Shown: positions 17,682 through 38,855 of the stretch, in pieces
Layout of the letters: each line of letters starts with the position of its first letter
Position numbering within the stretch: the first letter of the stretch is position 1
Source: Spongiactinospora gelatinilytica
GTDB taxonomy: Bacteria; Actinomycetota; Actinomycetes; Streptosporangiales; Streptosporangiaceae
Direction: 5' to 3'
Assembly (NCBI RefSeq): GCF_003236385.1
Contig: NZ_POUA01000008.1
Span: 1 to 51,715 of the forward strand
Length of the DNA: 51,715 bases
Translations under genes and position numbers: made by a program
Notes under the pieces: generated by a model
Told to the model about the DNA's origin: nothing
Databases searched by the model: none
What the model saw: only the letters and a program-made list of their open reading frames with translations

Positions 17682-18700
17682 GACAGGAGGAAGAGCCGAT
17701 CCCAGGCCGGTTCGACGTCTGTCGCCGCGGCCAGCAGCACCAGGACGACGCCCGCCGCGCCGTCCAGGACCCCGGCGCGGTCCACGGAGTTGCCCTGCGG
17801 CTCCAGCGAGGCGTACGCGAGCGGCCGTTCCGGCTGGTAGGCGGCCAGCAGCTCGTCTACGAGCTCGGCCGCCGCCTGGCGGAACAGGCCGGTGTCGCCG
17901 GCGAAGCGGAGCACGATGTGCAGCAGGCCGCTGACCCCGTGGCAGAACGTGGGCGACGGGATCGCGCGCAGTTCTGCCGGGCGGCGCAGGACGGCGTCCA
18001 TCGCCTCCAGCGCCACCTCGCCCAGGAGGCCGTCGTCGAGCGCCTGGGCCGCCAGCCACAGGGCGCGGGCGACCCCGGGGGTCCCGTAGCACCACGCGCT
18101 GCGTGAGGAGGCGGACCGGCCGGGCCGCCCCTCGCCGGTCAGCGGTACGAACGCGGGCCAGTCGTCCCCGGCACGGTGGGCGACCAGCCAGTCGGCGATC
18201 CGCCTGACGGCGTCCGCCTGGCCCGGTACCTCGATGCCCGCGCGCAGGGCGAGCGACAACAGGGCGAGCGGCCCCGGGATGCCGTGCGCGAGACCGCAGT
18301 CCAGAGCGCCGTGCGGGTGCAGCCGCGACATCGTCTCGTCGCCCATCAGGTGGGCGGGCGTCATCCAGGCGGGCGGCTCCTGCTCCCGGGCGAGCGTCAC
18401 GAGCCCTGCGAGGATCTCCGGGAGGATCCCGTGCGGGTCGTGCGTCAGCAGGTGGGCGCCTACCCCGCAGGCTCCGGAGATCAGGTCGAACGCGCTCACG
18501 GGGCCCGGCTCGCGGGTTTCGCCGAGCCGCCTGCCGATCGCCGCGGCGAGGGGTGCCAGGGCGTCGTCCAGCGCGGCGAGCATCCGCCGGTAGCGTGTAC
18601 CGTCCCGGCGCAGGTGCCCGGCGTCACGCAGTCTCCGCCGCCCGCCGCCGTCGGCTCCTGGCAGTCGTGATCGCGGGTGTCGGTCAGGCCCGGGATGCAC
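17678..18700 (-). CDS. lanC: LanC-like lanthionine cyclase, apparently shortened at the N-terminus
   Basis: 340 aa. It catalyses addition of Cys thiols to dehydroamino acids. Zinc-site motifs are present: WCYGTPGVARAL (Cys) and FCHGVSGLLHI (Cys-His), along with FDLISGACGVGAHLL and GLAHGIPGPLALL. Class I LanC proteins are usually about 400-430 aa; here recognisable homology begins only at RYRRMLAALDDALAP, so roughly 80-90 N-terminal residues appear missing. The first ~40 codons (VHPGPDRHPRSRLPG...) do not look LanC-like and are read in another frame by the precursor-like gene. The GTG at 18700 does have GAGGAG six bases upstream. Activity is plausible but uncertain. Confidence 0.85.
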   Translation of the reverse strand: MHPGPDRHPRSRLPGADGGGRRRLRDAGHLRRDGTRYRRMLAALDDALAPLAAAIGRRLGETREPGPVSAFDLISGACGVGAHLLTHDPHGILPEILAGLVTLAREQEPPAWMTPAHLMGDETMSRLHPHGALDCGLAHGIPGPLALLSLALRAGIEVPGQADAVRRIADWLVAHRAGDDWPAFVPLTGEGRPGRSASSRSAWCYGTPGVARALWLAAQALDDGLLGEVALEAMDAVLRRPAELRAIPSPTFCHGVSGLLHIVLRFAGDTGLFRQAAAELVDELLAAYQPERPLAYASLEPQGNSVDRAGVLDGAAGVVLVLLAAATDVEPAWDRLFLLS

Positions 18701-23137: not shown

Positions 23138-23306
23138 GCTTCTATGGCTTGTCAAGAGAGCACGGGCGATTCGGCTGCTGGTGCCTGAGGGCGGACGATG
23201 ACCTTGTAGAGCTGGCGGGCGACGTATCGCTTCAGACAGCGGATGATCTCTCTCTTGGAGAGCCCCTCGGCGGTCCTGCGCTCGACATAGGCGCGGGTGG
23301 GTGGGC

Positions 23307-23403
23307 CGCAGGACATGCGTGACAGCACGACGACGTACAGAGCTCGATTGGCCTGCCGGTCGCCGCCATGGTTGAGCCGGTGGCGCCGCGTTCTGCCGCT
23401 GGA
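23307..23403. repeat. 97-bp perfect direct repeat inside IS110 transposase, copy 1
   Basis: Runs from CGCAGGACATGCGTGACAGC to TTCTGCCGCTGGA and is identical to 23553-23649. This is the natural position in the C-terminal domain. Confidence 0.93.
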
Positions 23404-23552
23404 AGCAGGGACGGGCGACACCCCGCACAGGGCCGCGAACGACCCCTCCGAGCTCAGCCGCTCCGGATTGTCACCACATGTGACCGGTAGTTGTGCAGCG
23501 GTCTCAACACCCACGCCCTTGATGGCCGGCAACTCGGGCCGGGCCTGCTCAT

Positions 23553-23649
23553 CGCAGGACATGCGTGACAGCACGACGACGTACAGAGCTCGATTGGCCT
23601 GCCGGTCGCCGCCATGGTTGAGCCGGTGGCGCCGCGTTCTGCCGCTGGA
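23553..23649. repeat. 97-bp perfect direct repeat inside IS110 transposase, copy 2
   Basis: Second identical copy, 246 bp from the first and in the same reading frame. It occupies the place where the central region of the transposase should be. Confidence 0.93.
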
Positions 23650-24079
23650 TAGGGCGGCACCGTAGGAGCCGGTACCCTCCACCCCCACCGCCTGTAGCCG
23701 GCCGAAGGAACGCATCCACTCCAGTAGGTCCGCATATCCCGCTCGGGTCGCTGAAAACTCGCGATCGGCGACCCTGCGCCCGTTCATCAGCACCACTGCG
23801 GCGTGGTGCGTGTCGGCATGGGTGTCGACCCCGCCCACGATCCGTCGCGCCTTGGGCTTCTTGAACTCCGTCATGTGCACCCTTATCGGCTGGGCGATAT
23901 CCGAAGGCGGTGCGCGCCGGGGTGGCCGAGCAGGCAGACCAGTGACGGGACGGGTTCTCTCGTCGAGGTTTCTATCAAGCCATACACCGGCCGGCCCGAC
24001 ACACACCTTCGGGAGTGCTCCCCCGGGAAGAGGCGACAGATCGTGCCGATGGCACCAGGATGCCCGGGCCAGGTAGAAC

Positions 24080-24166
24080 AAGGGTCAGCCTCAGGGAGGA
24101 ACACTTCCTGCCTCTGCAACTTCATCAGCAGCAGCAGTGATTCCCGATAGCACCAGTCTCACTGAT
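24080..24166. repeat. 87-bp direct repeat, copy 2 (flanks IS110 remnant)
   Basis: Matches 23052-23137 almost perfectly. Read forward it gives VSLREEHFLPLQLHQQQQ and a stop, so the repeat may be a duplicated gene end. Confidence 0.9.
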
Positions 24167-24367: not shown

Positions 24368-24745
24368 CTAAACAACAACAATCTTTATCAGATCATCCAC
24401 GGAATTAAGGTCACGTCGTCCCGCCAGATACCCAATGCCGCGATGCAAATGCGTGATGAGAGTCCTCCCGCAAGCTTCTTCGGTTGGTTCGCTGCCATCA
24501 CGCAGACACCGGGATCTGATCAACGCCACATATATGTCTCCGCAAGCTCCAGCGAAGGTTCGCCAAGACATCTCGATGTTGGAATCGGTAACAACGTCGC
24601 GCACCAGCGGGGGCGTTTCGTCCTGCAAAGATACAGCTAGAGCCCAGCGGCACAGGACGTTCCAGTTCTTTATGCCAGTGACTCGTTTGAGCTTGATCAG
24701 CTGATCCTTTGCCGGTTGGGACAACCGGATTGTATCAAGCGACAT
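24368..24745 (-). CDS. dndE: DNA phosphorothioation protein DndE
   Basis: 125 aa starting MSLDTIRLSQPAKDQLIKLK, the typical DndE opening, followed by TGIKNWNVLCRWALAVSLQD and a C-terminal TLITHLHRGIGYLAGR. DndE is a small DNA-binding member of the sulfur-modification complex with DndC and DndD. It overlaps the end of dndD by 11 nt and is the last gene of the operon, with a hairpin just behind. The length is normal. Confidence 0.88.
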   Translation of the reverse strand: MSLDTIRLSQPAKDQLIKLKRVTGIKNWNVLCRWALAVSLQDETPPLVRDVVTDSNIEMSWRTFAGACGDIYVALIRSRCLRDGSEPTEEACGRTLITHLHRGIGYLAGRRDLNSVDDLIKIVVV

Positions 24746-26723
24746 ACCGAGTCTTCCCCCATCCGTATCCGCGTTCGATCGTGGTTGTGAACGTCGAGTC
24801 GTGGTAGACCAATGTGTACGTCTGGGCGATCGACGGAATGAGGCGCTGCAGCAGCTCATCGTCGATTTCCTCGTCTGTCGACAGCAGAAGCACTTGGTGG
24901 CTCGCTTGCGGGAAGTAACGCTCAACAAGATTCTGTCTGTGCCGACTATCCAGTCGACCCAGCGGAGTATCGATGACGCTCGGGAGCCTGTTGCCCGCTA
25001 CGCGAGCTAGACCCCAGAGGAGAGATACCGCCAAGAGCTGACGCTCGCCGGCGCTCAGGCGTGCAGGATTGAGGTCATCGCCGTCCGCGCCAATCAAGGT
25101 CAAGGTGAACTTGCTAGTGTCGATACGTAGGTCCCTGACCAGGCCGTCCTTGCGCATTAGGCGGTTGAAGCTGTCTAGTACAGCAACCTCCAACCGACTG
25201 ATATGACGTTGCAGCAGGAGCTCTCCGAATTTGTCCAAAGTGTTACGAGCGCGGCCGGAGTATGAAACCAAACGGGCACGGTGCTCGATCTCGGCTAGTC
25301 CCTTGGCTCGTTTGGCATATGCCTTCTCGCGGGCTGCCTGGAGCTGCGTGTGTTCCCGGCCGCGTGCGGCGTGAGCCTCCTCCGTGGCGTGCAGTTCCCT
25401 CTCGAGGTCTTCCACGCGCTGACGAACCTTGTCCTGTCGGGCGATCAGGTCGGCGATCGTATCTTCTGCTGGAACGCCGGCCAACTGCCGATCTAGCGCG
25501 TCGAGCTGCGCTCTGAGCTCTCCAGACTCAGTGAGCAGCTCTTCCGCATGCAGTGATTCGCTTTCAAGAACTTGGTCAAGCGAGTTGAGTTGCTGAATGC
25601 CTGTCGCCGACATCCGGATCACTCTAGGAACGCCTGCATCAGCCGCGCGCTGGGCACGGTCCTCTTCCATGAACTGGGCGATCTGCTCAAGCTGAACATC
25701 CGGTATGCCGTTGCCGAGTAGCGAGAGAATCTCATGGTCCCGCTTGTGCAGGGCGTCGAGTAGCTGCTCCGCGCGGACCGCATCTTCCTCTCGAGCTACC
25801 TGTGCACGCAGAGCCTCCAGCTGACCCTTGAGGAGGAGGAGTGGGAGCGGTCCTGCTGCAATGGTGTTGGCAAGAGTCGCGCTTACAGCTTCGAGCCGGC
25901 CTTTCGCGTGGGCACTCTCTGCTTCTAGCTCCGCCCGACGGCGGAAGAGGTCTCCCCCTTCCTTAGCGAAGGCGGCCTCGACGGCCTTCAGCTCCTTCTT
26001 TTCATGTAGGAGACCAGCTTTTGCGGAAGCGACTCGCTGAAGCGCATCTGCTCTGGCCACCTCGTTTTCCTCAAGCTGAGCTTCGATGGTAGCGATCAGC
26101 TCCAGGGCTACCTTGTCCTCTCGGCTCACCTTCTGGCGTCGTTGAAGAGCTAGCAGGTCGGTCCGCAGCTGTTCGACTGTGCTGACTCCTAGAAGCGATT
26201 GAACCGCCGACTCGATGACTGGAGCAGCCCGCTCAGGATCCGCAAGCGATTCGATCTTCTCGCCATCAAAGAAGAAGAGAGATGCGACTTCCAGCGGTAG
26301 GAGATCCTCTACATAGTCCGCCCATGTGTCACTGACGGCCTTATCGTGTTCGCCGTTGACGAAGACCGCAAGCGACTCCCGGAGGGTCTTTCCCGAGATC
26401 GACCAGTTTCGCTCAATACGGTAATGACGTTGCTCCCCTTCAATCGTGGTCGAGAACCATAGTTTCACACCTGCCTGCTTAGGCATGGCCTGACGGTTCA
26501 CGCTGTCACGGAGGAACGCGTCGTAGGAGCGATTTCCCCTACCGCTGCACCGTGCCCGGGAGCCGTACAACGCCAGTTGGATAGCATCTAGCAGCGTCGT
26601 CTTCCCGCAGCCGTTGAGACCTCCGATCAGGATGATCGGCTTGCCCGGCTTGGGATTCAGAGAGAGGACCTGCTTGCCGAGGTACGCTCCGAAGTTCTCG
26701 AGAGTGATCTCATGCAGGAGCAT
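24735..26723 (-). CDS. dndD: DNA phosphorothioation ATPase DndD
   Basis: 662 aa, SMC/Rad50-like ATPase of the sulfur-modification complex. Begins MLLHEITLENFGAYLGKQVL. Walker A is GGLNGCGKTTLL (about 34-45), a DGEKIESLADP segment follows, then a long coiled coil (about 190-470). The ABC signature is RLSAGERQLLAVSLLWG and Walker B is LPSVIDTPLGRLD near the C-terminus. An ATG 15 nt upstream (26738) is also in frame; 26723 is preferred because GAAGAGAG precedes it and the family starts this way. It overlaps dndC by 14 nt. Confidence 0.92.
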   Translation of the reverse strand: MLLHEITLENFGAYLGKQVLSLNPKPGKPIILIGGLNGCGKTTLLDAIQLALYGSRARCSGRGNRSYDAFLRDSVNRQAMPKQAGVKLWFSTTIEGEQRHYRIERNWSISGKTLRESLAVFVNGEHDKAVSDTWADYVEDLLPLEVASLFFFDGEKIESLADPERAAPVIESAVQSLLGVSTVEQLRTDLLALQRRQKVSREDKVALELIATIEAQLEENEVARADALQRVASAKAGLLHEKKELKAVEAAFAKEGGDLFRRRAELEAESAHAKGRLEAVSATLANTIAAGPLPLLLLKGQLEALRAQVAREEDAVRAEQLLDALHKRDHEILSLLGNGIPDVQLEQIAQFMEEDRAQRAADAGVPRVIRMSATGIQQLNSLDQVLESESLHAEELLTESGELRAQLDALDRQLAGVPAEDTIADLIARQDKVRQRVEDLERELHATEEAHAARGREHTQLQAAREKAYAKRAKGLAEIEHRARLVSYSGRARNTLDKFGELLLQRHISRLEVAVLDSFNRLMRKDGLVRDLRIDTSKFTLTLIGADGDDLNPARLSAGERQLLAVSLLWGLARVAGNRLPSVIDTPLGRLDSRHRQNLVERYFPQASHQVLLLSTDEEIDDELLQRLIPSIAQTYTLVYHDSTFTTTIERGYGWGKTRYVA

Positions 26724-28233
26724 CGGTGCTCTCTTCATCCAATCCGATCAGGGTGGGGGCGACCTTGTTCTGCTGATTGCGTTTGGCTAGCTCGACCGCA
26801 TCCTCCGCATCCGTGTAGTAACCCTTCTTGATCGCCTTCTCAAGTGCTTCGAACAGTCCGGAGCGACGAGTCATCGTGCGGAATTTCCGTTCAACCGCAA
26901 GTAGCTCACGCATCGTCTCGAAGTGCAGGTCGTCTCCGTCGCAGACCTCACGAAGCAGCTCCACCTCGTCCGCGGCCACTGCAAGGTGCTGGTCGAGCGG
27001 ACTGCCGGGGAACTCCTCGCCCGTCTCCTGCTTGTAGATCTGGGGCAGCGAATCCTCGACCTCATGCTTCTCGAAGACCCAGATGCGTCGGATCTCATGC
27101 AGCTCGTCCATGGTGATTAGCTCGATACCCCGCACATGCTCTGGAGCGTTCTGTCGGATCCAGGTCTGCGCGTTAAGGAGTTTGCGGAGCCACTCCTCAC
27201 GGGCCTTCTGTGTGTACGGTCCAGGAACGTTGCGATCGTGGAAGAGCTGAATCGTGCCGTTCATCTTCCGGAAGTCACGCAGGTGGCTGTCGTCGGGAGC
27301 GTCGAGCTCGTCCCGTAGCTCCAGGAGGGGAAGCATCCACTCCTTCTCCTCGTCGTTCTGGATCATCGCCGACATGGACTTGTCCTTGTCGACGAGGGTG
27401 CACGTCCAGCAGCCGAAGCGGCTGTCACCACAGGAAGGAGTGGTGTTATCCACCACGAGTGGACATTCTCCATCGCTCGAGGCTCCTTGATACATGGTGA
27501 GGAGATCCTTGTTCGGATGCCCCCAGGGGTTGGGCTGCTGCATCAAGAACGTCCAGACCTCGTCGTTGCTCCATGCCTCGACGGGGCTGTAGACGAGGGA
27601 GTTGGGAAGGTTGCCGTTGGGCGAGAGACGGTCACGGACACGGCGCTTCTCGTGGCGCTCCATCACTCGGGCGCGAGCCTGGCTCTCGGCCTTGCGGATG
27701 CCCAGCACCAAGATCGCCTCACCGTGGTCATGCACGACTCGGCGAATGAACGAATTAGAAGGCTTGATCTTCAAGCGTTCGGTGCACCAGCGGAACTTCG
27801 GCTTCGGAGCGGGGTATCCCTTGCCGATCAAGCCGACCCAGAAGGTGTCCTTCACATCAGGCACCAGCCGGTTTGGTTGGATCGGGAGCTGCTGCTTCTC
27901 TGCAGCCTTGCGCATGGTCTCCAGTGATTGGGTCACCCAAGCAGCGACTACCGGATTCTCAACCAGGGTGTCCGTGCTGATGACATAGACCGGCTTGGTG
28001 CGCTGATCGGGCTCTAGGCCTTGTAGCGCCAGCCACACGAGTTGCAGTACCGCAGTGGAATCTTTGCCGCCGCTGTAGCCCACGACCCAAGGAACCTGAT
28101 CGGCCAGGTACAGCTCACGGATCTCTGCGGTCAGCTCGTTCACCACCGCGGCGAGACCGCCTTGACTCTCAAAGGGGACAGCGCGCCGGATGGGGGTGTT
28201 CAGCATGACGGCACTGCGCGTCGGGGTGCTCAT
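26710..28233 (-). CDS. dndC: DNA phosphorothioation sulfurtransferase DndC
   Basis: 507 aa, PAPS-reductase-like. The PP-loop VGYSGGKDSTAV (about 51-62) binds and splits ATP to activate the DNA backbone. A cysteine cluster for the iron-sulfur centre lies at SCGDSRFGCWTC (267-278), with C257 nearby. FRWCTERLKIKP (148-159) is the conserved PAPS-reductase-type segment. DndC works with DndA, D and E to put sulfur in place of a non-bridging phosphate oxygen. The ATG overlaps the dndB stop (ATGA). Confidence 0.95.
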   Translation of the reverse strand: MSTPTRSAVMLNTPIRRAVPFESQGGLAAVVNELTAEIRELYLADQVPWVVGYSGGKDSTAVLQLVWLALQGLEPDQRTKPVYVISTDTLVENPVVAAWVTQSLETMRKAAEKQQLPIQPNRLVPDVKDTFWVGLIGKGYPAPKPKFRWCTERLKIKPSNSFIRRVVHDHGEAILVLGIRKAESQARARVMERHEKRRVRDRLSPNGNLPNSLVYSPVEAWSNDEVWTFLMQQPNPWGHPNKDLLTMYQGASSDGECPLVVDNTTPSCGDSRFGCWTCTLVDKDKSMSAMIQNDEEKEWMLPLLELRDELDAPDDSHLRDFRKMNGTIQLFHDRNVPGPYTQKAREEWLRKLLNAQTWIRQNAPEHVRGIELITMDELHEIRRIWVFEKHEVEDSLPQIYKQETGEEFPGSPLDQHLAVAADEVELLREVCDGDDLHFETMRELLAVERKFRTMTRRSGLFEALEKAIKKGYYTDAEDAVELAKRNQQNKVAPTLIGLDEESTDAPA

Positions 28234-29372
28234 CGCTCTCCTCGCTGGTAGGCGTCTTCTGCCTGCTGCTCATCGGCAGTCAGTTCGAGACCGAGCTGCT
28301 TGCGTAGATAATTCACGGTAAGTACGACGTTTTGGTGATTCTTCGAGACACGGCCACCGATGATCGCACGTCCCTCCCAGTCAGGATTGGTCCGCGACCA
28401 GTCCACATCTCGAAGCGGCGCCAGCCGCGGCTTCCACGCCTCTGGATCAAGGGAACCGCGAAGTAGTGTGTTTCCGAGCAGCCCTAGCGCGTGAAGGGCG
28501 ATCCCATGCGTGTGTAGGTACTGCTTGCGGATCTCGGAGGCGGAGAGAGATCGTCTCCGCACTTCTCCCCAGTCCGGGATGAGTGCATCTATAGCTTCCC
28601 AGTAGTCCCACGGCAGGCGTTCCCCGTCCTTGCCGCTAGTCAGCTCCAGCCCTTGTAGAAGGGCACTCATCGCCGAGTACAGGGCGCTGAGCGTGAAGAG
28701 CTTGCGCGATCGAGCTGAGAGGTTGCTGCTCTCCATTTCAACGAAGTTGCGGAACACCGGGCACTTCAGCGCAAGGAGCCGCGTCAGCTGTGAGAGCTCA
28801 TCCCGATGGTCGTAGAGGACTCCAATGGAACGGGCCGGCCGCACAGCATGGCGGTTCAGGTCAGCGAACATCTGCTGGCTGCGCTCGAGGCCCGCGTCGT
28901 GGAAGAAGACGACAGCGATGGTCTCATCACCGAGTGATGGGTTCTCTTTGAGTGCCGCCTCGATAGCTGCACGTCGGTGCTGGCCGTCATTGATCAAGAA
29001 GCGCGAGGCCATCGGGATGTGCAGCTGACCGACCCGCAACCCTGGGCCTTGGTCCGCCACGCCCACGAAGCGCATGGAGCCATCGACGGAGGCGGTTAGC
29101 GCAGAAAAGACGTAATCGTCAGGGTTCTCCAGGATGTACTGCGCGAGTGCTGGAACTCGTCCCTTGTTCAGGACTCGCTGCGCTCGAACCTCCGGCGCTA
29201 GCTCATCCTCATCGAACAAAAAGATCTTGGGGATGAGGCGCAACGGACACATCGATACGTAGTACTCACGTCCTGCCTGCAAACCGCGGATAGCCGGGAA
29301 GATGTACTCGAAGCCCGCAGTGGTGGCGCCCCCACCTTGCTGCACCAGCGCATGTGATCCCACGTAGTCCAC
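28230..29372 (-). CDS. dndB: Dnd regulator DndB
   Basis: 380 aa from a GTG at 29372 (VDYVGSHALVQQGGGATTAG). DGQHRRAAIEAAL and FADLNRHAVRPARSIGVLYDHRD are hallmarks of the DndB/DGQHR-domain family. In Salmonella DndB represses the dnd promoter by binding inverted repeats; a similar role is likely here. The gene diverges from dndA with ~45 bp between starts, the place for shared control. Upstream in-frame extension exists but would run through dndA, so the GTG is chosen. It is first of the dndBCDE operon. Confidence 0.9.
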   Translation of the reverse strand: MDYVGSHALVQQGGGATTAGFEYIFPAIRGLQAGREYYVSMCPLRLIPKIFLFDEDELAPEVRAQRVLNKGRVPALAQYILENPDDYVFSALTASVDGSMRFVGVADQGPGLRVGQLHIPMASRFLINDGQHRRAAIEAALKENPSLGDETIAVVFFHDAGLERSQQMFADLNRHAVRPARSIGVLYDHRDELSQLTRLLALKCPVFRNFVEMESSNLSARSRKLFTLSALYSAMSALLQGLELTSGKDGERLPWDYWEAIDALIPDWGEVRRRSLSASEIRKQYLHTHGIALHALGLLGNTLLRGSLDPEAWKPRLAPLRDVDWSRTNPDWEGRAIIGGRVSKNHQNVVLTVNYLRKQLGLELTADEQQAEDAYQRGER

Positions 29373-29416
29373 GGTACCGTAGGTACGTGTGCGTTTTAAC
29401 GTACACACGTGATGTG
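29370..29416. promoter_or_regulatory. Divergent dndA/dndB control region with inverted repeats
   Basis: The ~45-bp gap holds ACGGTACCGT (29371-29380, perfect palindrome), TACG-N12-CGTA (29384-29403) and ACGTGTG...CACACGT (29385-29410). The Salmonella DndB site has been described as TACG-N10-CGTA; the spacing here is two bases longer. Likely operator for DndB; -10/-35 elements are not clear. Confidence 0.55.
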
Positions 29417-30604
29417 ATGCCAACAATGATGAGAGCTGGGGTGCATGTGGTCGCCTACCTGGATGCTGCGGCAACGACGAGGGTGCTCCCGGAGGTCGCC
29501 GAGGTCGTCCTGCACTGGATGTCCCAAGATTTCGGCAATGCGGGCTCGCGTACCCATGAGTATGGAACTCGCGCCAAGAAGGCAGTAGCCCGCGCTCGTG
29601 AAGGCATCGCAGCCCACCTCTGCGCACGCCCGGATGAGTTGATCTTCACCAGCGGTGCAACCGAGAGCAACAACATCGCCATCCTGGGGCTGGCTCCTTT
29701 CGGCGCTAAGGCTGAACGCCGTCACATCATCAGCACCGCAATTGAGCACAAGGCTGTGCTGGAGCCACTGGAGCACCTACAGTCACAGAGTTTCGAGGTC
29801 GAGCTGATCGAACCGGGCTCCTCCGGCCGCGTGAGCGCGGAAGCCGTACTGGAACGGCTACGTCCTGACACGCTGCTTGTATCTGTCATGCAGGTCAACA
29901 ACGAGACTGGTGTCATCCAGCCCGTCGCCGCGCTGGCCGAGCATCTCCGCTCCACTTCCACGTATCTTCACGTTGACGCGGCCCAGGGCTTCGGCAAGCT
30001 GCCAGACGACCTTCGTGCACCAATCGATCTCATCAGCTTCAGCGGGCACAAGATTGGAGCGCCCAAGGGAGTGGGCGGCCTGCTCATCAGACGCCGCGGG
30101 CGGGACTCCGTGCCGCTGACCCCGCTGATGTACGGAGGCGGCCAGGAACGCAAGCTCCGCCCCGGCACACTTCCGGTTCCCCTCATCATGGGTCTGTCCA
30201 AAGCTCTTGAGGTGTTCGAAAGCGAACGTACACAGTGGCTGCAAGCGGCCAGCGAGTTCCGCGCCCGTCTGCTGAAGGGACTCGACAAGACCCGCTTCAA
30301 CCTCCATGGCGACCAAGAGCACGTGGTCCCGCACATCCTCAACCTGTCGTTCGCGGGCGTGGACACTGAGGCCTTGATCTTGCAGCTGAAGAACTACGCC
30401 GCGGTGGCCACCGGATCCGCCTGTACAAGTGCGTCGTACACCCCAAGCCATGTTCTCGCAGCGATGGGACTGCCCGAAGAACAGGCCAGCAACGGGCTGC
30501 GCCTCTCTTGGTTCCCCGACCAGGCTCAGGCACTGGACGTCGACGAGTTCGCAAGTATCATCGCCGAGTACCAATCCGGCATCGCACCGGTCACTTCCTC
30601 TTGA
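29417..30604 (+). CDS. dndA: Cysteine desulfurase DndA (IscS-like)
   Basis: About 395 aa, PLP-dependent class V enzyme that delivers sulfur from L-cysteine to DndC. VAYLDAAATTRVLPEVAE is the family opening. GATESNNIAILGLA, HVDAAQGFGKLP and the PLP-lysine motif SFSGHKIGAPKG (Lys near 212) follow. The catalytic cysteine lies in TGSACTSASYTPSHVLAAMG (near 335). The start could be the ATG at 29417, the ATGs at 29426/29429, or a GTG near 29447 just before the conserved part. It ends 14 nt inside the convergent methyltransferase gene. Confidence 0.92.
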   Translation: MPTMMRAGVHVVAYLDAAATTRVLPEVAEVVLHWMSQDFGNAGSRTHEYGTRAKKAVARAREGIAAHLCARPDELIFTSGATESNNIAILGLAPFGAKAERRHIISTAIEHKAVLEPLEHLQSQSFEVELIEPGSSGRVSAEAVLERLRPDTLLVSVMQVNNETGVIQPVAALAEHLRSTSTYLHVDAAQGFGKLPDDLRAPIDLISFSGHKIGAPKGVGGLLIRRRGRDSVPLTPLMYGGGQERKLRPGTLPVPLIMGLSKALEVFESERTQWLQAASEFRARLLKGLDKTRFNLHGDQEHVVPHILNLSFAGVDTEALILQLKNYAAVATGSACTSASYTPSHVLAAMGLPEEQASNGLRLSWFPDQAQALDVDEFASIIAEYQSGIAPVTSS

Positions 30605-32039
30605 TCAGTCGGTGACCACGGAGCTGGCGGCCGCAGCGGACTAGCTCGGCCTCCCAGCCCTGCTCCGTCCTAATGAGATGGGGATTGGCGTATAGGCCGG
30701 CTCGCAGCTCGCTCTCGGTTAGTCGCCGATACTTCGGAACACTGGGGTCATCCGGGTGAAGAAACTCATGCTTGCGATGGAGTAGAGGTCTGTTCTCCGA
30801 CTGCTCGTAGGGCATGTGTGAGGTCTTGAATGTGGTGAGATCGACCATGTAGGACGATCGCAGCCGCGGATGCGGATCCGTGTCGAACTCGGGATAGTCC
30901 AGCCAACTCACTCCCCTACCCTGATGGCGCAGCTTGGCCAGGGTCCACTCCTGCGGACGTCCTGCCGCGAGCGAAGCGCAGTGCTCATACAGGCGTAGCA
31001 CAACGGGCATGTGATCAATTGCCCGGCGATGCACGTACAGGGCTGTTGGCGTGAGCTTGCCAGCCTTTGACCCGTTCATCGCACCACGGACATAGGCATC
31101 ATCGCGCAGCTTGAGCAGCAGACGATCGGACCGCATGCATGCTTCCCTGTAGGAGTTGAAGAACGCTCTCACGTCGAGCTGCACGGGAAGGGGGAGGCAT
31201 CCGAAGGGGGCACGCCCATTGAACAGCTCCACACCTAGGAACAGCAGCGTGGTCAAGGTGGATCTCTTCGCACCTTCCACGACCTTGTCTGGATCGGCCG
31301 ACACCCGGACGATCCGCTGCAGTTCTGCGGTGTTCAAATGGGCTAGGAGCTCCGCCATCTGCGCCGGCATCTCCTCTACACGCGGCACCCGCCCGCGTCG
31401 CTCTGTGTAGTCGACTACCGAGGCTATCGCCGATGCCGCGTCGTCAGAGGCCAGCCAAATGGCCGCGGGTGCGATCCGACGAGCCAGATAGCCCAGGCGC
31501 GCTTCATCACGCTTGAAGGCATAGACGATTCCGGGAGCCGCAGAGACGCACCGGACGCCTGTGGCATCCTCAACGCAACTTCGGAGCTCTCCAGCACTGA
31601 ACAGGTGCTGAAACGTCCGCCGGCTGGTAAGGACTCCGTCGCCGAAACCCGTGCCCTTGATCTTGGACTTCTCCCAGGTGAGACGAGCGGAGACCACCAA
31701 GATCCCCTTAGCAAGCCCCCACGCCTTGACGAGCGTACGACGCCGTTCCTCCGGGTCCTCGATGATGTTGAGGACATAAGTCAGCAGCACGACATCCGAT
31801 GGGTTGAGGCTGCCTTCGGGGTGATAGTGGGGGTCCCAGCCGACCGCTCTCATGGCGACCCCCTGTAGAGCCCGGACATCATCCCCTCGTCCGCAGCCAT
31901 AGTCCAGGACTGACGAGTCAGACGTGATCTGCTGGTCCACCACAGCCTGACGCGCGGGTACGGAAAGTCCCGTTCTGCCGATGGCGGTCAGGCGACGCTC
32001 GGTTTCCCAAGCGCCGCCCATCTGCTCTGCGAGAGTCAC
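30591..32039 (-). CDS. DNA phosphorothioation-associated putative methyltransferase
   Basis: 482 aa. A class I SAM-binding motif VLDYGCGRGDDVRAL (44-58) is followed by VGWDPHYHPEG and VVLLTYVLNIIEDPEERR, the arrangement of the Dnd-associated methyltransferase family detected by profiling with dnd genes. The C-terminal half (LPVQLDVRAFFNSY...; LDYPEFDTDPHPRLRSSYMVD) is family specific. The substrate is unknown. GTG start at 32039, 16 nt after the preceding gene. It is last in the second operon and its end overlaps that of dndA. Confidence 0.85.
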   Translation of the reverse strand: MTLAEQMGGAWETERRLTAIGRTGLSVPARQAVVDQQITSDSSVLDYGCGRGDDVRALQGVAMRAVGWDPHYHPEGSLNPSDVVLLTYVLNIIEDPEERRRTLVKAWGLAKGILVVSARLTWEKSKIKGTGFGDGVLTSRRTFQHLFSAGELRSCVEDATGVRCVSAAPGIVYAFKRDEARLGYLARRIAPAAIWLASDDAASAIASVVDYTERRGRVPRVEEMPAQMAELLAHLNTAELQRIVRVSADPDKVVEGAKRSTLTTLLFLGVELFNGRAPFGCLPLPVQLDVRAFFNSYREACMRSDRLLLKLRDDAYVRGAMNGSKAGKLTPTALYVHRRAIDHMPVVLRLYEHCASLAAGRPQEWTLAKLRHQGRGVSWLDYPEFDTDPHPRLRSSYMVDLTTFKTSHMPYEQSENRPLLHRKHEFLHPDDPSVPKYRRLTESELRAGLYANPHLIRTEQGWEAELVRCGRQLRGHRLIKRK

Positions 32040-32055
32040 ATGCCCATCATGGGGT

Positions 32056-32532
32056 TCAGAACTCCGGAGGGCTGAAGAATTGGCCTAGCTCTGGGGGAAG
32101 CCCTCCGGACCTCTGATCCCGGCCAGCTCGTCGTACCATCTCCAACAACACGTCCATGACCCGCGACTTGCTCGCGTTGATCTCGCCTTGGATGTAGTTG
32201 AGACCACCGTTTGCATACTCTTCGAAGATTGTGACCCGCTCCCCGAGGCGCTCCTCACTCAGGATGGAAGCGTCGCCAGGGTGCTCCAGTACCCCGAGGG
32301 AGTCGATGAATGCCTCGGCAGTCGGAGAGCGGCGCAAGACTTCGTACCGAATGGGTTCGCCGGTCTCGCTGAACTCCTCCCTACGCTCATGGGCGTAGCC
32401 GACGGACGCTGCAAAAAGTAAGGTCGCGGCCATACTGGTGAATGGACCATCGCCGTCCTTGCTCAGCTGCTGGATCAGACTCTCGTGCCCCTTGGGCCGA
32501 CGAACTCGCTGCTCACTGGGGCTCGTCATCAT
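32056..32532 (-). CDS. Dnd system-associated protein 4
   Basis: 158 aa. RRPKGHESLIQQLS, GPFTSMAATLLFAASVGYAH and GGLNYIQGEINASKSRVMDV match the family called DNA phosphorothioation-associated protein 4. The function is not known; it is usually encoded next to the Dnd restriction-type genes. The start codon overlaps the stop of the DndD-like ATPase gene (ATGA), suggesting a fixed stoichiometry with it. Confidence 0.8.
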   Translation of the reverse strand: MMTSPSEQRVRRPKGHESLIQQLSKDGDGPFTSMAATLLFAASVGYAHERREEFSETGEPIRYEVLRRSPTAEAFIDSLGVLEHPGDASILSEERLGERVTIFEEYANGGLNYIQGEINASKSRVMDVLLEMVRRAGRDQRSGGLPPELGQFFSPPEF

Positions 32533-34598
32533 TGCGCCACCTCAGTGAACTCTGCGCCGTCGAAGGAAGATCCCAGTACCTGGTACGGGTACTCTCTCCC
32601 GTTCACAGCGATCTTCTTCGTAACGTCCTGCAGGTCACTTTTCGTCGTATGGGTCGTAATCACATACTGCTTGCCCACGCGCGGGTGCAGCGAGTTCTCG
32701 GCGACCCCTTCGGCTTGGGCCTTGCTGGACAGGACCACCACCTGAGAGGTCATCTCTGGGAGAAACCTGGCGATCTGCCGACGGTAGTCATCGTCTAGGT
32801 TGCCGAACACCGCGTCCATGACAATCGGATACTCGCCGCCGACGCCTCCGAAGAAGGGGTTCGGATTCGTGGCAGCGTCGCGGCACTCTTGCGCGATGGC
32901 GCCGACGAAGGAGAGTGAGAGCAGCATGTTCTCACCAGTGGACTTGGGGGCCGGGACCTTCTCATCGCCTATCCGCTCCCAGTACTCCAGCTGGAATCCC
33001 GGCGTAAGCTCCGGCTCGTAGTTCTTCAGCGACGCCTGTTTGAACAGGGTTCGGATGCGGGTGTCCAGACGGCGGCGGATGCTGTCGGACAAGAGCTCAA
33101 GGATCTGCCGGAGCGCGGTCTCGGTCTCTCGGATCACGGCGATCCGGCGCTGGATCCGCTGGTTGTTCTCGTCCTTGACCTGAATCTTGTCGACCTGCTC
33201 CTCTTTCTGCCTTTTCTGGTTGGCCAGGAAGTCGAGGTGCTCGTCGATTGTGCCGAGGCGTCTGCTCGTCTCGCTCAACTTGTCGATCATCTTGCTGCGT
33301 CGCACTTCGATTGCACTGATGTCTTCCGCCGGCAGCTTCTTGATCTCAATGGAAACCTCGTTGAGCTGCTCAACCAGCGTGCGCTCTTTGTCTGATGCCT
33401 CACCGATCAGCCGATCCGTCTCCGCCAACCGATCCATCGTGCCACGACGCCGCTCCTCCAAGCCGGCTACAGCGCCGCGAAGTTGATTCCATGCCGCTTC
33501 CACGTCGGCAAGGCCAGCACGCGCACGCCACATTTCCAATGCTGCTCGCTCGGGCGAGCCTTCGGTGAGATGGGTACCGCAGATGCACTCGCCCTCTACG
33601 AGAAGGTCGTCGATGAACGTGCGCTTTAATGGTGCGGGCAGCTCACCGCGCTCGCGAAGTGCATCACAGGCAGCGATGATCTCCTCAGGCAGATCAGGAA
33701 GGAAGGCTAGATAACCTGAATCTGCGAGCACCCGAGAGCGCTCGTCTTCGAGCTTGCGCAGTGACTCATGGGCGCTCTCACGTTCCCGTTCCAGGCGCTC
33801 ACGCTCAAGCTGAAGTTGCTTGGCACCGTCCAGGGACTTGAGACGTGCCGCGAGTAGCTCAATCTCATCCTTGAGGTGCTGAACTTCAGTGTTAAGAGAC
33901 TCCTTCTCCTGCTTCTTCTCTTCCGTCTCCTTGAAGATGGCATCGATCTCAGCAGTCAGGCGCTCGGCGAGCTCACTGTTAGCCCCCTCGGACTTCAGCT
34001 GGTGACGCAGCTTGTTCGCCGCCGTAGGTAGGTGCTTGAGGGCTCGCTCGAGCTGCTCTAGGCCGAGGAGTGTCTTGATCGCATGCTGGATCTCCGCGTA
34101 GGCCTCCTTGCGGACCAACTGCTCGATGCGCTCACCGTTGACGAAGAAGAACTTGCTGAGGCGCTCGGGAAGAATCTTGTCTATGTGTCCCTGAGCGCTC
34201 TTGAGCTCTTTGGTGACGCCCCTGTCGTCACGCTCGAGGAGGAGCAGCTGTGCCTTGGGCAAACGCTGGTCTGAACTCTGCTTCTCCGCTGTGAGAAACC
34301 GGCGTGCAGTGTAGGTGCGGCCTTCGTGTTCGAACTCAATGGTCACCGACATGTCCACCGACGAACCGACGCGTGCTTCCTGCCAGATCCCGTTGTTGAT
34401 CAATCTGTCTTGCTGCTCGACATCTGCGCTGAGATGCCCGTAGAGGGCCCAGGTGAAGGCGTTGAGCAGGGTCGTCTTACCGCCACCGTTGGTGCCGTAT
34501 ACCAGCGTGACGTTGTGCCCCGGCTCCTGGGCGAACGAGATGCTGCTACGTCCGCCGTACGGTCTGAAGTTCTCAAGCTCGATCGACAGCAGCTTCAC
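32529..34598 (-). CDS. Second DndD/SMC-like ATPase of the Dnd restriction-type operon
   Basis: 689 aa. Starts MKLLSIELENFRPYGGRSSI, Walker A YGTNGGGKTTLLNAF (34-48), FFVNGERIEQLVRKEA, two long coiled-coil arms (about 190-310 and 360-500) separated by a hook-like GECICGTHL (near 335). The ABC signature region is STGENMLLSLSFVGAIAQE and Walker B is PIVMDAVFGNLDDDYR. It resembles DndD and Rad50 but is a distinct paralogue of the dndD gene in this window. It probably powers a DNA-sensing or loading step together with the helicase. GTG start overlaps the preceding stop (GTGA). Confidence 0.85.
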   Translation of the reverse strand: MKLLSIELENFRPYGGRSSISFAQEPGHNVTLVYGTNGGGKTTLLNAFTWALYGHLSADVEQQDRLINNGIWQEARVGSSVDMSVTIEFEHEGRTYTARRFLTAEKQSSDQRLPKAQLLLLERDDRGVTKELKSAQGHIDKILPERLSKFFFVNGERIEQLVRKEAYAEIQHAIKTLLGLEQLERALKHLPTAANKLRHQLKSEGANSELAERLTAEIDAIFKETEEKKQEKESLNTEVQHLKDEIELLAARLKSLDGAKQLQLERERLERERESAHESLRKLEDERSRVLADSGYLAFLPDLPEEIIAACDALRERGELPAPLKRTFIDDLLVEGECICGTHLTEGSPERAALEMWRARAGLADVEAAWNQLRGAVAGLEERRRGTMDRLAETDRLIGEASDKERTLVEQLNEVSIEIKKLPAEDISAIEVRRSKMIDKLSETSRRLGTIDEHLDFLANQKRQKEEQVDKIQVKDENNQRIQRRIAVIRETETALRQILELLSDSIRRRLDTRIRTLFKQASLKNYEPELTPGFQLEYWERIGDEKVPAPKSTGENMLLSLSFVGAIAQECRDAATNPNPFFGGVGGEYPIVMDAVFGNLDDDYRRQIARFLPEMTSQVVVLSSKAQAEGVAENSLHPRVGKQYVITTHTTKSDLQDVTKKIAVNGREYPYQVLGSSFDGAEFTEVAQ

Positions 34599-34780
34599 TT
34601 GATGATGCCCTCAACCCTCCGGATGATCTGGTCGCTCACGTTGCGCGTCACCGTCGCGGTGTCTCCCAGATGCAGGTTCTCCTTCTCCAAAGTCAGAACG
34701 TCCACGATAAGCTTCTTCGCCTCATCGCTTAGCTCCGCATAGATACGACCGACGATCTCGCGCTCGTTCTGGTCGCTCAC
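34595..34780 (-). CDS. 61-aa protein between helicase and ATPase genes
   Basis: Reads MSDQNEREIVGRIYAELSDE, then KKLIVDVLTLEKENLH and ends RNVSDQIIRRVEGIIK. Predominantly helical, no Cys. GTG start with GGAG upstream, 17 nt after the helicase gene. Its stop overlaps the ATPase start (GTGA). Tight coupling on both sides supports a real gene, perhaps a small subunit of the ATPase. No family recognised. Confidence 0.65.
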   Translation of the reverse strand: MSDQNEREIVGRIYAELSDEAKKLIVDVLTLEKENLHLGDTATVTRNVSDQIIRRVEGIIK

Positions 34781-34797
34781 TGTCTATTCTCCACCCT

Positions 34798-36930
34798 TCA
34801 CACATCAAGAAGTTGGTAATAATCGCGCAATTCCCTCAGTTTGGCGAGGGCTTCGCCGTGATTCTCCGCGTACCCGGCAAATTCGACGCATCGAGCCAGC
34901 TCTCGCCGGAAGAGCCGGCGCTCGATTTCGAACAGGGCAGGGTCCTGTGGGGGCGTCACCACGAAGTCGATAACCTCCGCGAAGCTCTTCCCTGGCGCCC
35001 TTCGAAGGATCCGACCACGGCGCTGAATGAATTGTCGAGGGTTGGTGCTACTCGCGAGCATGTACGCCACGCGAGCATCCGGGAGGTCGACCCCCTCGTC
35101 CAGACAGCGCATGGACACAAGAACTTGTAGGTCACGCCCAGTCGCGAACGATCGGAGCAGATCCCTGCGTTGCCGCTTGTGCTCTCTGGAGGTGAACGTA
35201 TGAGCTCTGAGACCCAACTCCTTGCCCACCAGCTCGATGACTTGCTCGACCTGACGTGGCCCGGTTCCGCCGTCAATCAGCGGTGTGCCGCCCTCAGCGC
35301 AGTAGATCAACTGGAAGAAACTGTGCCTGTGTCCTTCCAGTGCCTCCCGAAGGGCTGGCACCTTGGCTCGAGCGTGCCCGAGGACCTTAGACCGCATCCC
35401 TAGCAGCATTCCGAGCGGTGAGTTTTCATCCTCGCTCACCGACTCCGGCTCCTGCGATCTCATAAGCGCGCCGATCTTCACGGTGAGCTCGGTGTACTGC
35501 TCTGCCTCGTCGTCGCCCAGGGGGACGAGGACTGGGTGGTATCTGTATCTCGTCAGCGCCCCTAGGTCGATCGCCTCCTTGAGACCAAGTTCGATGAGAA
35601 TGTCCCCGAAGTAGTCCTTGAGGGCGTCGGTGCCCGTCGGGTCGAACCATCGCTCCGGTGTGGCGGAAAGGGCGAGGCGGAACTGGGCATGTGCCGGGAG
35701 AGCCGTCAGCAGATGTTCTGCCCCCAGATGGTGCGCCTCATCGGCGACGATCAGCAGAGGCAGATCGACGGCGGCAAGGAGCCCCTGGAAGGATGCCGCG
35801 CGGAAGGTTGCATTGGTGACCACCAATGTGATGCTCCCTTCTCGGCGCGCCCGAAGAGCGGCTATCGCATTGCGCGCCGCCGGCTCCCACGACGCGACCA
35901 AGTCACGGCACTTGATCGGCACAACGCCGAAGTTGCGAAGCTTTGCGGACCACTGCTCGACAAGGTCCAGGAGCGGGACGACAACCACCGTGACCAAGGA
36001 CAGATCACGAGCGTGAAGCTGTCGCCCCATCTGGTCGAGCGCCGCCAATGCGGTGATCGTCTTTCCAGTGCCGGTAGCCATCTGGAGCATGCCACGGCCA
36101 TTGGCGCTCAGCCACTTCGCTACCGCAGTCTTCTGGTAGTCCCGCAGCTCCACATCATGCGGCACTCGCACCCATCCCATGGTCGTGAGATCGGTGGACA
36201 CGACCAGTGGCTCAGGACTTTCGGTCCCGGTCGGCAACTCGCCGGCACGTTCGCCCAATGCGATGAACCGCTCCTTCGCGACAGCGGGAAAGTGGAGGAT
36301 CTCCAGCCGTGGCGTGCGTCCGGCCCACAGCTCATCGAAGTCGTATCGGAGGATGTCCACCCGGCCCTTGTCGTTCTCTTCCCACGATCTGAAGACCTGG
36401 ATCGATTCGAAGTTGTCAAGGAAGGCGGAGCTGGTCTCGTTCATCGAACCGGTGAATGCGACGGTGTCCCCATACTTGTCGGAGATGAGGCCAATCTTCT
36501 CGTGGTAGAGCGCAAGGCCTTCCCTGCCGTGGACGATAGCGATCTTCACATCCAGCACGCCTTGAGCAATGAGATGGCCGAGGAGCCCAAGCCCGGCGAG
36601 TTCTTTCCGAGGACGCTCGGTGTCTAGGTCCAGCTCACGGAGCACTGCCTTGGCGATGATCTCTCGGTACGCATACCCAGCCCGCATCTCCTCGATGTCG
36701 CTGTCCGTTAGGTGCGGACTGGCTATGAGGCGAATACGACCTCCGTTACGTCTAAAGCCTTCCAACCCGCGAGCGACCAGTGCGAGAGACTTGCTGGTGA
36801 AGTATCCGACTGCTCGGTCGTATCGGTTCGCGAGCGAGAGGCAGGGGACATAGAACTCGCCCACGGCGTTGCTACGGTCGCTCCTGTAACTGTCCTCGAT
36901 GGTCAAGGCGCGCAGCATTTCAGCCATCAC
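34798..36930 (-). CDS. Dnd restriction-type PLD-like/SF2 helicase protein
   Basis: 710 aa. N-terminal phospholipase D-like domain with LYHEKIGLISDKYGDTVAFT followed by GSMNETSSAFLDNFES (about 141-176), the HxK...GSxN pattern of PLD nucleases. Then an SF2 helicase: RDYQKTAVAKWL, Walker A MATGTGKT (284-291), DEAH (397-400), LSATPERW and motif VI QFIQRRGRILRR. This is the layout of the family named DNA phosphorothioation system restriction enzyme. It likely attacks unmodified DNA. It overlaps the upstream gene by 4 nt (ATGA). Confidence 0.88.
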   Translation of the reverse strand: MMAEMLRALTIEDSYRSDRSNAVGEFYVPCLSLANRYDRAVGYFTSKSLALVARGLEGFRRNGGRIRLIASPHLTDSDIEEMRAGYAYREIIAKAVLRELDLDTERPRKELAGLGLLGHLIAQGVLDVKIAIVHGREGLALYHEKIGLISDKYGDTVAFTGSMNETSSAFLDNFESIQVFRSWEENDKGRVDILRYDFDELWAGRTPRLEILHFPAVAKERFIALGERAGELPTGTESPEPLVVSTDLTTMGWVRVPHDVELRDYQKTAVAKWLSANGRGMLQMATGTGKTITALAALDQMGRQLHARDLSLVTVVVVPLLDLVEQWSAKLRNFGVVPIKCRDLVASWEPAARNAIAALRARREGSITLVVTNATFRAASFQGLLAAVDLPLLIVADEAHHLGAEHLLTALPAHAQFRLALSATPERWFDPTGTDALKDYFGDILIELGLKEAIDLGALTRYRYHPVLVPLGDDEAEQYTELTVKIGALMRSQEPESVSEDENSPLGMLLGMRSKVLGHARAKVPALREALEGHRHSFFQLIYCAEGGTPLIDGGTGPRQVEQVIELVGKELGLRAHTFTSREHKRQRRDLLRSFATGRDLQVLVSMRCLDEGVDLPDARVAYMLASSTNPRQFIQRRGRILRRAPGKSFAEVIDFVVTPPQDPALFEIERRLFRRELARCVEFAGYAENHGEALAKLRELRDYYQLLDV

Positions 36931-38855
36931 TGGCCACCAAGCGCAGCGAAGAAGTCATCGAGATCAGGAACAGAATCGTGTGCTCGAAAAGACTCACTCA
37001 GGGTGTAGCTCTCTAAGATTTCGGCGAGGTTAAGGTCGCCGCGAGCACGCAAGGCCATCACGAGAGCAGCCCAGGAGGTTTGCGCAGAGAGTGCAAGGGC
37101 GCCGGCTATGGCGGATCGCAGGTCCTCTCCACTCAATCCCCGTGGGGCACCGGCGCGAAGCGCGATCTCGTCATCCTCGGTCTTACTCCAGGCCCGAACC
37201 AGCCGGGCACGAACCGTGCCATGGTCGGTCGGTGCGAGCCAGAGCACATCACCGATCTTGGCCTGAAGCTCTGTGGCCAGTGAACGGATGCTTCCGAATT
37301 GCGGCTGGGGTGCTGCCCAGGAGATGCGGATCTCCTGGGCCAGAGCAGCGAAGACGCGTTCAGTCCCCTCCGCGACTTGGAACAAGGCCATTACGCCACG
37401 TGGCGCCGTAAAGCCCGACCCGCGCAGAACCTCCTTGTTGATGTCTACACGGAACCACCACTGTCCCCTGAGGAAGAAGCACCTACGGGTCTCTCCAGGG
37501 GTGGGCATTCTGCGTGGTGCCTGGCTTGGCCCGTCATCTCCATTCCCTGCCAAACTGATCCACCCATCCCTACGAGAGAACTCCCGCCGCGCCGCGTAGG
37601 CGCGAACACTGGCCGGCGAGACGCCAAACTGTTCGACGAGTTCATCAACCACGTCAGACAGCCATGCCCTGCCGCCGCCGCGTTCGATGCGTTGAACAAT
37701 CTCCTCGCGGATGCCCTCGTACGTCTCAAGGTCCCACTCGGGCAACCCATATGAGTTGGGGCCCACCCTTGAAATCCGATCGTCCTCCTGCAGTCGATTG
37801 CGTAGCGATCTGATCGTATCGACCTGAATCCGCTCTGCGATCTCTTCTACGCTCAAGGGACGTCCTTCCGCTCTGAGGACAGCGACCGTCAGCTCAGGCT
37901 GGGACGCACCCTTGCGAACCACCAGATCCCCAAGCGAACGAAGCCCGCAGTAATTCAGCCAGGCAGCCCAGTCCGCAGCGTCCAGCAGCAGCTCAGCGCG
38001 AATCTGGTCCAGGGTTGCACATTGCCCCTCGACCAAATCACAACAGACGGCTGCATGGAAGGTTGCATCACGGAGATCCGACAGCGATGTCATCGCCAGC
38101 CAAGGTTCGTCGATGTCAAGATCGGGCAGTAGCACCCCGAGGAAGGCGGACAGCTCGAGACTGAACGAATAAATTTCAGCGGAAAGCTCGGCGATCCTCG
38201 CAATCGCTTGCTCAATCGTCATGAGCGGGGATGCGTGTACGCGGACTGCATCGCTCAGCTCTGAGACACGCTCCGCAACCGCTGTCGTTTCGCGCCAACC
38301 GGCGAAGTCTTCAGCCACTTTCTTTTCGAGCTGGCGAATCCGCTCACGACTCACACCCAGCTCGTTGCCCAAGTAATCAAGGTTCCGATCTCTGCGGACC
38401 ACCCGATGGCGAAAGATCAGCCGCCGTCGCTCATCTAGCGAGGCCGCCCATCGTTCCAATAGATCGCCTAGGGTCGCATCAATCCTGAGGCGAGACGTCT
38501 GTTCGCCGTCGTTTTGATCCCCGGTATTACCATCCACCAGCGAGATAAGCAGGGCGCTCAAGATATCAACAAGTGACTGCCTACCGCAGGTGCGGAGGTG
38601 CCGAATGTCAGAGACGACCCAGCGCAGCAAGTCCCTCGAATCACCAATGGCGTTGTTGATCAGGATATTGCGCGCTCGCACAGTCTTACAACGCCGCGCC
38701 ACATCGCTCGCCGCCGGATCCGGCACACCCAGGAGTTGCCCTAGGGACTCGGAGCCCTCGTATGACGCCAACTGCCCAGCATAGGCGGAAACCAGTCCTT
38801 GACGCGCATCCGGAGCTGCGGCGTTTAACGCTTCCAGCATGCCATTGAGAGTCAT
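36927..38855 (-). CDS. Large protein with sigma-70 region 4-like helix-turn-helix, first gene of the Dnd-associated operon
   Basis: 642 aa. A sigma region 4-type HTH is plain: DERRRLIFRHRVVRRDRNLD, YLGNELGVSRERIRQLEKKV (141-180). Later parts look like further winged-helix domains: PLSVEEIAERIQVDTIRSLR, then WLSDVVDELVEQFGVSPASV and a C-terminal region with WAAPQPQFGSIRSL. No sigma region 2 is visible, so it is not an ordinary sigma factor. It may bind DNA as part of the restriction complex or regulate the operon. Strong ribosome binding site AGGAGGT precedes the ATG. The next gene overlaps by 4 nt. Confidence 0.8.
   Translation of the reverse strand: MTLNGMLEALNAAAPDARQGLVSAYAGQLASYEGSESLGQLLGVPDPAASDVARRCKTVRARNILINNAIGDSRDLLRWVVSDIRHLRTCGRQSLVDILSALLISLVDGNTGDQNDGEQTSRLRIDATLGDLLERWAASLDERRRLIFRHRVVRRDRNLDYLGNELGVSRERIRQLEKKVAEDFAGWRETTAVAERVSELSDAVRVHASPLMTIEQAIARIAELSAEIYSFSLELSAFLGVLLPDLDIDEPWLAMTSLSDLRDATFHAAVCCDLVEGQCATLDQIRAELLLDAADWAAWLNYCGLRSLGDLVVRKGASQPELTVAVLRAEGRPLSVEEIAERIQVDTIRSLRNRLQEDDRISRVGPNSYGLPEWDLETYEGIREEIVQRIERGGGRAWLSDVVDELVEQFGVSPASVRAYAARREFSRRDGWISLAGNGDDGPSQAPRRMPTPGETRRCFFLRGQWWFRVDINKEVLRGSGFTAPRGVMALFQVAEGTERVFAALAQEIRISWAAPQPQFGSIRSLATELQAKIGDVLWLAPTDHGTVRARLVRAWSKTEDDEIALRAGAPRGLSGEDLRSAIAGALALSAQTSWAALVMALRARGDLNLAEILESYTLSESFRAHDSVPDLDDFFAALGGQ

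Follow-up and report, generated by a model that had tools for sequence, protein, structure and literature searches.

The island examined here (positions 24368 to 38855 of the window, i.e., the whole 51,715-nt stretch of DNA analyzed, in whose positions all coordinates are given) combines dndABCDE with PbeABCD, and the sigma-like gene that opens the pbe operon has, judging from sequence and gene neighborhood, about an even chance of encoding a fifth Pbe component that would guide or license PbeA. This first gene, which the preliminary description had listed without comment, is the unusual part of the island and may be new.

Organization of the island

The transcription order on the minus strand was a 642-aa HTH protein gene, pbeA, pbeB, pbeC, pbeD, a TIGR04096 methyltransferase gene, dndB, dndC, dndD, and dndE, with dndA divergent. 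The features are as follows.

36927..38855, minus strand: opening gene of the pbe operon, encoding a 642-aa sigma-like DNA-binding protein (Pfam Sigma70_r4, E 1.6e-8)
34798..36927, minus strand: pbeA, 709 aa when counted from the ATG at 36927, an SF2 helicase with a PLD (HxK) nuclease domain (PADLOC PbeA, 1.6e-240)
34595..34780, minus strand: pbeB, 61 aa (position and motif shared with the small ORFs that relatives carry between pbeA and pbeC)
32529..34598, minus strand: pbeC, CxC-clade ABC ATPase, 689 aa (PADLOC PbeC, 2.5e-182)
32056..32532, minus strand: pbeD, DNA phosphorothioation-associated protein 4, 158 aa (TIGR04062, E 1.3e-26, above cutoff)
30591..32039, minus strand: Dnd-associated putative methyltransferase, 482 aa (TIGR04096, E 1.9e-148, above cutoff)
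29429..30604, plus strand: dndA, cysteine desulfurase, divergent (TIGR03235, 5.9e-152, 506 bits, above cutoff)
29384..29403, no strand: palindrome TACG-N12-CGTA between dndA and dndB, possible DndB operator
28230..29312, minus strand: dndB, start codon slightly upstream of these coordinates (PF14072, 9.8e-136; TIGR03233, above cutoff; DndB, 1.4e-163)
26710..28233, minus strand: dndC, sulfurtransferase, 507 aa (TIGR03183, 4.3e-210; DndC, 3.9e-202)
24735..26738, minus strand: dndD, ABC ATPase without CxC, 667 aa (TIGR03185, 3.9e-205; DndD, 5.1e-217)
24368..24745, minus strand: dndE, 125 aa (PF08870, 6.5e-37)

All genes named in the preliminary description were intact ORFs at their given places, and the assignments were far beyond chance. 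The HTH gene overlaps pbeA (TGATG, with the likely pbeA ATG at 36927; the ORF at full extent, 34798-36930, has a GTG start), a 17-nt gap separates pbeA from pbeB, 4-nt overlaps occur at pbeB/pbeC and pbeC/pbeD, and 16 nt lie between pbeD and the methyltransferase gene. The GC content of the island was about 59 to 62%, compared with 67 to 75% in the flanks (∼10 points lower). Transposase genes at 182-1822, 7678-9030, and 23155-24081 (the last of IS110 type, directly past dndE) place the island in a mobile-element-rich stretch. Elsewhere in the window, a 303-aa HNH_2 endonuclease protein is encoded at 9249-10157 and a full-length lantibiotic dehydratase at 14733-18095, and therefore a lanthipeptide-type cluster is close by.

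Modification module and PbeABCD cassette

By homology, DndABCDE is a complete phosphorothioation (PT) module: dndB, dndC, dndD, dndE, and the divergent dndA were all present and intact, as previously described, and the expected catalytic motifs were kept in all five genes (e.g., SGHK and GSAC in DndA, SGGKDST and the Cys motifs in DndC). Between the divergent dndA and dndB, the sequence TACGTGTGCGTTTTAACGTA occupies 29384-29403. The DndB binding site of Salmonella is TACG-N10-CGTA (PMC4507180), and the window palindrome, TACG-N12-CGTA, is a possible candidate for a DndB operator, taken here as a lead because its N12 spacer is unlike the N10 of Salmonella. Two other genomes (G188 and G134) carry TTGTACGGA-N8-TCCGTACAA in the corresponding dndA-dndB place. 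The earlier statement that no DndF/G/H-type gene could be recognized was borne out, as the main proteins of the island had no match to these families in PADLOC, Pfam, and TIGR profile searches, which excludes a DndFGH-like identity for any operon protein; a whole-genome search with TIGR03237 and TIGR03238 also gave zero matches, and no positive control matched either.

The neighboring operon is indeed a separate, effector-type cassette, but it is not a new "alternative effector arm": by homology, the helicase, 61-aa protein, ATPase, and protein-4 genes are PbeABCD, reported in 2019 (PMC6459918) and earlier mentioned only as a set to compare, in the published order. The gene order is A-B-C-D, encoding in turn a PLD-SF2 helicase, a small protein, an ATPase, and a protein of about 150 aa; PbeC is a CxC-type ABC ATPase, and the PT-modification genes dndA-E are adjacent. 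When the proteins were compared with the Dnd and Pbe profile sets, PbeA, PbeC, and PbeD were matched, but none of the PADLOC models scanned matched the first-gene product. PbeA (numbered from the GTG) has H143xK145, GSMN, GTGKT, DEAH, SAT, and QRRGRILR motifs. Its score against TIGR04095 is 542 bits, under the 600-bit cutoff, which was also passed by none of 297 actinomycete genomes, so NCBI naming may miss PbeA of the window type. PbeB shares the motif ELSxE...LxxVLxxE...LH with ORFs of 53 to 63 aa that occupy the pbeA-pbeC interval in relatives, PbeC has a Walker A motif (GTNGGGKT) and CIC at 338, and TIGR04062 is the protein-4 family to which genes following pbeC are also assigned elsewhere. 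Cyanobacterial PbeA proteins (L068-L078, L082, and L106) are mostly short, consisting of a helicase part of about 490 aa, and a separate ∼200-aa gene upstream in the same loci is perhaps a split PLD part.

The DndCDEA-PbeABCD of Haloterrigena jeotgali A29 (PMC6459918) shares all four pbe genes and their order, also beside PT-modification genes, with a PbeB of 66 aa and a PbeD of 152 aa (61 and 158 aa in the window), whereas the window adds dndB, the sigma-like gene upstream of pbeA, and the TIGR04096 methyltransferase gene between pbeD and dndA. In the haloarchaeal system, PT-marked virus escapes PbeABCD, every pbe gene matters (pbeA partly), PbeABCD is inactive in a host without PT, and no visible cutting of viral DNA occurs (PMC6459918). 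A PT-dependent block of viruses is predicted by homology for the window cassette. The earlier idea that the operon senses sulfur-free DNA agrees with the escape of PT-marked virus, but the absence of sulfur alone is no trigger, because PbeABCD needs PT in the host to be active (PMC6459918). PMC10853773 recasts PbeABCD as a CxC ATPase-DndE system and argues for cutting or suicide; like the systems treated there, the window has an SF2 helicase carrying a fused HKD nuclease, a CxC hook in PbeC, and a small protein.

Linkage of pbe, dnd, and the methyltransferase gene

DndB and the high-scoring pbeA type were screened in 297 genomes drawn from the class (actinomycetes). Only high-scoring TIGR04095 matches were counted, because at E 0.001 ordinary helicases match in every genome. 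DndB exceeded the cutoff in seven genomes and the pbeA type was found in four, all DndB positive (hypergeometric P of about 1e-7) and with the dnd and pbe gene sets close together, which agrees with the co-occurrence expected in the preliminary description. In other loci (L174 and L176), pbe adjoins DUF4007, PAPS-reductase, and desulfurase genes (BREX type 4-like PT modules) in place of dnd, with pbeA placed after pbeD in L174.

The methyltransferase had been counted as the sixth gene of one coupled operon. It is co-directional with the other five, but one locus (L169) has dnd and the methyltransferase gene in the order dndB-dndA-methyltransferase, as in the window, with pbe absent, and in Arthrobacter (L041) and another genome (G134; L171) the gene follows dndE. 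These arrangements indicate that the methyltransferase travels with dnd rather than with pbe, and membership in pbe was ruled out accordingly. The protein belongs to TIGR04096 (495 bits against a cutoff of 150), and a motif scan detected neither the DNA-methylase motif IV, (D/N/S)PPY, nor PCQ; any DNA methylase role is putative. The effector unit is best read as a five-gene operon, HTH-pbeA-B-C-D.

Recurrence of the sigma-like gene beside pbe

Sixty pbeA loci from many phyla were drawn from GTDB genomes by PbeA alignment, some on short contigs. Sigma-region-4 genes were found in 11 of the 60, all immediately ahead of pbeA or right behind pbeD, by a model that was built partly from these partners and hence was not blind, although Pfam finds the domain in nearly all of them. 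One partner is convergent, and one is separated by a small gene. Away from pbe, no sigma-region-4 gene occurred in 1.07 Mb of these loci, nor did any in 20 control helicase loci (0.3 Mb). About four-fifths of the pbeA loci have no adjacent sigma-4 gene.

The window and six actinobacterial loci showed the most regular arrangement, usually with a stop/start overlap with pbeA. In all six of the other actinobacterial TIGR04095-type pbe loci (L034, L035, L036, L041, L048, and L049), a relative of the first gene immediately precedes pbeA; the upstream genes of L034 and L049 keep the winged-helix part, region 4 is absent from both, and that of L049 has an Lsr2 DNA-binding domain in its place. With more distant actinobacterial pbeA types, the gene is convergent with pbeD (G109) or none was recognized (G145). 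The G188 partner (L036:4087-5766) has an extra N-terminal half of repeated cysteine-rich (HNH zinc-loop-like) units. In several phyla the sigma-4 gene is at the 3' end of pbe; in L053, L054, and L057, the partner encoded past pbeD has sigma region 2 as well as region 4. The L054 locus comes from a Methanobrevibacter bin and, provided that the binning is right, would perhaps place a sigma-like partner in an archaeon. Partners range from 350 to 1308 aa. On a PbeA tree of 66 rows, the starred branches call for a minimum of two changes for the upstream arrangement and likewise for the downstream one; given this tree and the two positions, the pairing probably has more than one origin.

Family members also occur without pbe in Actinobacteria, near UvrD-type helicase genes (L166), an MmeI-like enzyme plus helicase (L164), REase-ARP (L167), and GmrSD (L161). 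In L166, L168, and L044 (from the window's taxonomic family and Nonomuraea), two members of the protein family flank a gene of about 600 to 700 aa, which is a UvrD-type helicase gene in L166; by gene lengths, paralogues in the window's own genome (C67 and C523) look like the L166 array. Such neighborhoods fit, without proving, a general DNA-reading partner of DNA-attacking systems. Among viruses, single-protein and A2 scans gave only three short sigma-4 matches, and phage records gave none.

Domains and fold of the first-gene product

The 642-aa protein has a weak alphaCTD-like HhH at about 58-102, sigma-70 region 4 at 123-199, winged helices at about 262-440 (HARE-like at 323-371), and a C-terminal beta barrel at about 456-560. 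The family profile matches sigma region 4 of SigA/RpoD with E down to 1e-13, and the RERIRQ helix is kept. The alphaCTD match is at E 0.24 in the window protein versus 2.3e-11 to 3e-4 in relatives (profile search), and the HARE-HTH Pfam score is 22.8 bits against a cutoff of 25.9. In a full-length AlphaFold2 model that is weak overall (pLDDT 57), fold matches were sigma region 4 (Z 9.8, 1.7 Å over 62), a winged helix (Z 9.3), and B3 barrels (Z up to 9.5, 2.6 Å over 95). The best match of a barrel-only model, also weak, was again B3, at Z 3.8; by sequence profile, the best match of the barrel was the PEX1 barrel (E 0.022), with none to B3. The barrel is thus of uncertain kind. Two other identities were rejected, namely a true sigma-70 factor (region 4 is present, but region 2 is absent at E up to 1) and a hidden nuclease, for which Pfam, PADLOC, and the fold matches gave no candidate. 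Bacterial proteins mixing RNAP alpha and sigma features with HARE-HTH, a domain mix said to be similar, were reportedly described by Aravind and Iyer in 2012. The pbeABCD link of such proteins is what our analysis adds, unless it was already made there.

In the open-access main texts covered, the sigma-like protein is not mentioned as a Pbe component. The main text of PMC10853773 describes HARE-HTH-REase fusions and a sigma-HTH inside DndH, but no sigma/HARE protein beside Pbe. In CglI/NgoAVII, a B3-type DNA reader cooperates with a PLD nuclease and an SF2 helicase (PMC4267653). The PLD and helicase parts also occur in the window, along with a possible B3 reader, a likeness that depends on the unsettled fold; in CglI/NgoAVII, PLD and B3 form one chain and the helicase is separate, whereas in the window PLD is fused to the helicase and the merely possible B3 is in another protein. 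The cassette was rejected as a CglI/NgoAVII system on the grounds that PLD is on the helicase chain and the methyltransferase has no PCQ motif (m5C).

Proposed role and alternative explanations

In the proposed scheme, DndABCDE would place sulfur in host DNA, and, by analogy with the haloarchaeal system, the PbeC ATPase and PbeD would scan DNA, while PbeA (PLD nuclease-helicase) and PbeB would act on unmarked DNA, with PT needed in the host. The first-gene product, with DNA-reading modules and no recognizable enzyme, would be a fifth component, acting alongside PbeA as a subunit for DNA recognition or licensing, and would steer the helicase/nuclease to, e.g., promoter-like or actively transcribed invader DNA. 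This fifth-component reading is favored by the place upstream of pbeA, the overlaps, the 11 of 60 loci against none of 20 controls, the occurrence in several PbeA clades and in two positions, and the family relatives near other DNA-attack genes. It is weakened by the haloarchaeal PbeABCD, which works without such a protein (PMC6459918), by the ∼4/5 of pbeA loci without an adjacent sigma-4 gene, and by the unsettled fold of the C-terminal barrel. Moreover, a transcription regulator could also consist of DNA-binding modules alone. The main rival is an ordinary dndABCDE-pbeABCD whose sigma-like gene encodes an autoregulator, which would use sigma region 4 and the winged helices to bind its own promoter and would set only the amount of PbeABCD. 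We regard this as a serious though somewhat doubtful possibility: the recognized domains are all of DNA-binding type, the gene opens the operon both in the window and in Actinobacteria, and some partners elsewhere have sigma regions 2 and 4, but in several phyla the gene is at the 3' end of pbe, and the protein is unusually large (350 to 1308 aa among partners). A consensus scan upstream of the operon detected no sigma-70-like promoter, which speaks weakly against autoregulation, as other promoter types were outside the scan.

That the sigma-like gene is a separate, co-transferred defense or regulatory gene, adjacent through defense-island clustering, is quite improbable; the family does occur without pbe in Actinobacteria, but nearly all cases show the same strand with tight overlap or short spacing, nonadjacent sigma-4 genes are absent from the 1.07 Mb, and the PbeA tree points to several origins. 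A further rival concerns the action of Pbe rather than the identity of the first gene: PbeA would cut host DNA upon phage inhibition of PbeB, making the cassette a suicide device. The HxK nuclease and helicase motifs kept in PbeA and the model proposed for CxC systems in PMC10853773 are in its favor, but PbeB in the window's group keeps the common motif and is not freely diverging, and in the archaeal study viral DNA was intact and pbe without PT was nontoxic (PMC6459918), which makes suicide unlikely here.

The two published views of Pbe action disagree, one finding no cutting and the other arguing for nuclease attack or suicide. Against this background, a recurrent, translationally coupled DNA-reading partner is a concrete candidate for the recognition or control step of PbeABCD, and the four-gene Pbe annotation overlooks a frequent neighbor. 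More tentatively, many Pbe systems might have a fifth core protein that would read DNA by sigma region 4 and other modules and recruit the PLD-helicase to particular invader DNA, thereby joining sulfur-based self/non-self marking to promoter or transcription recognition.
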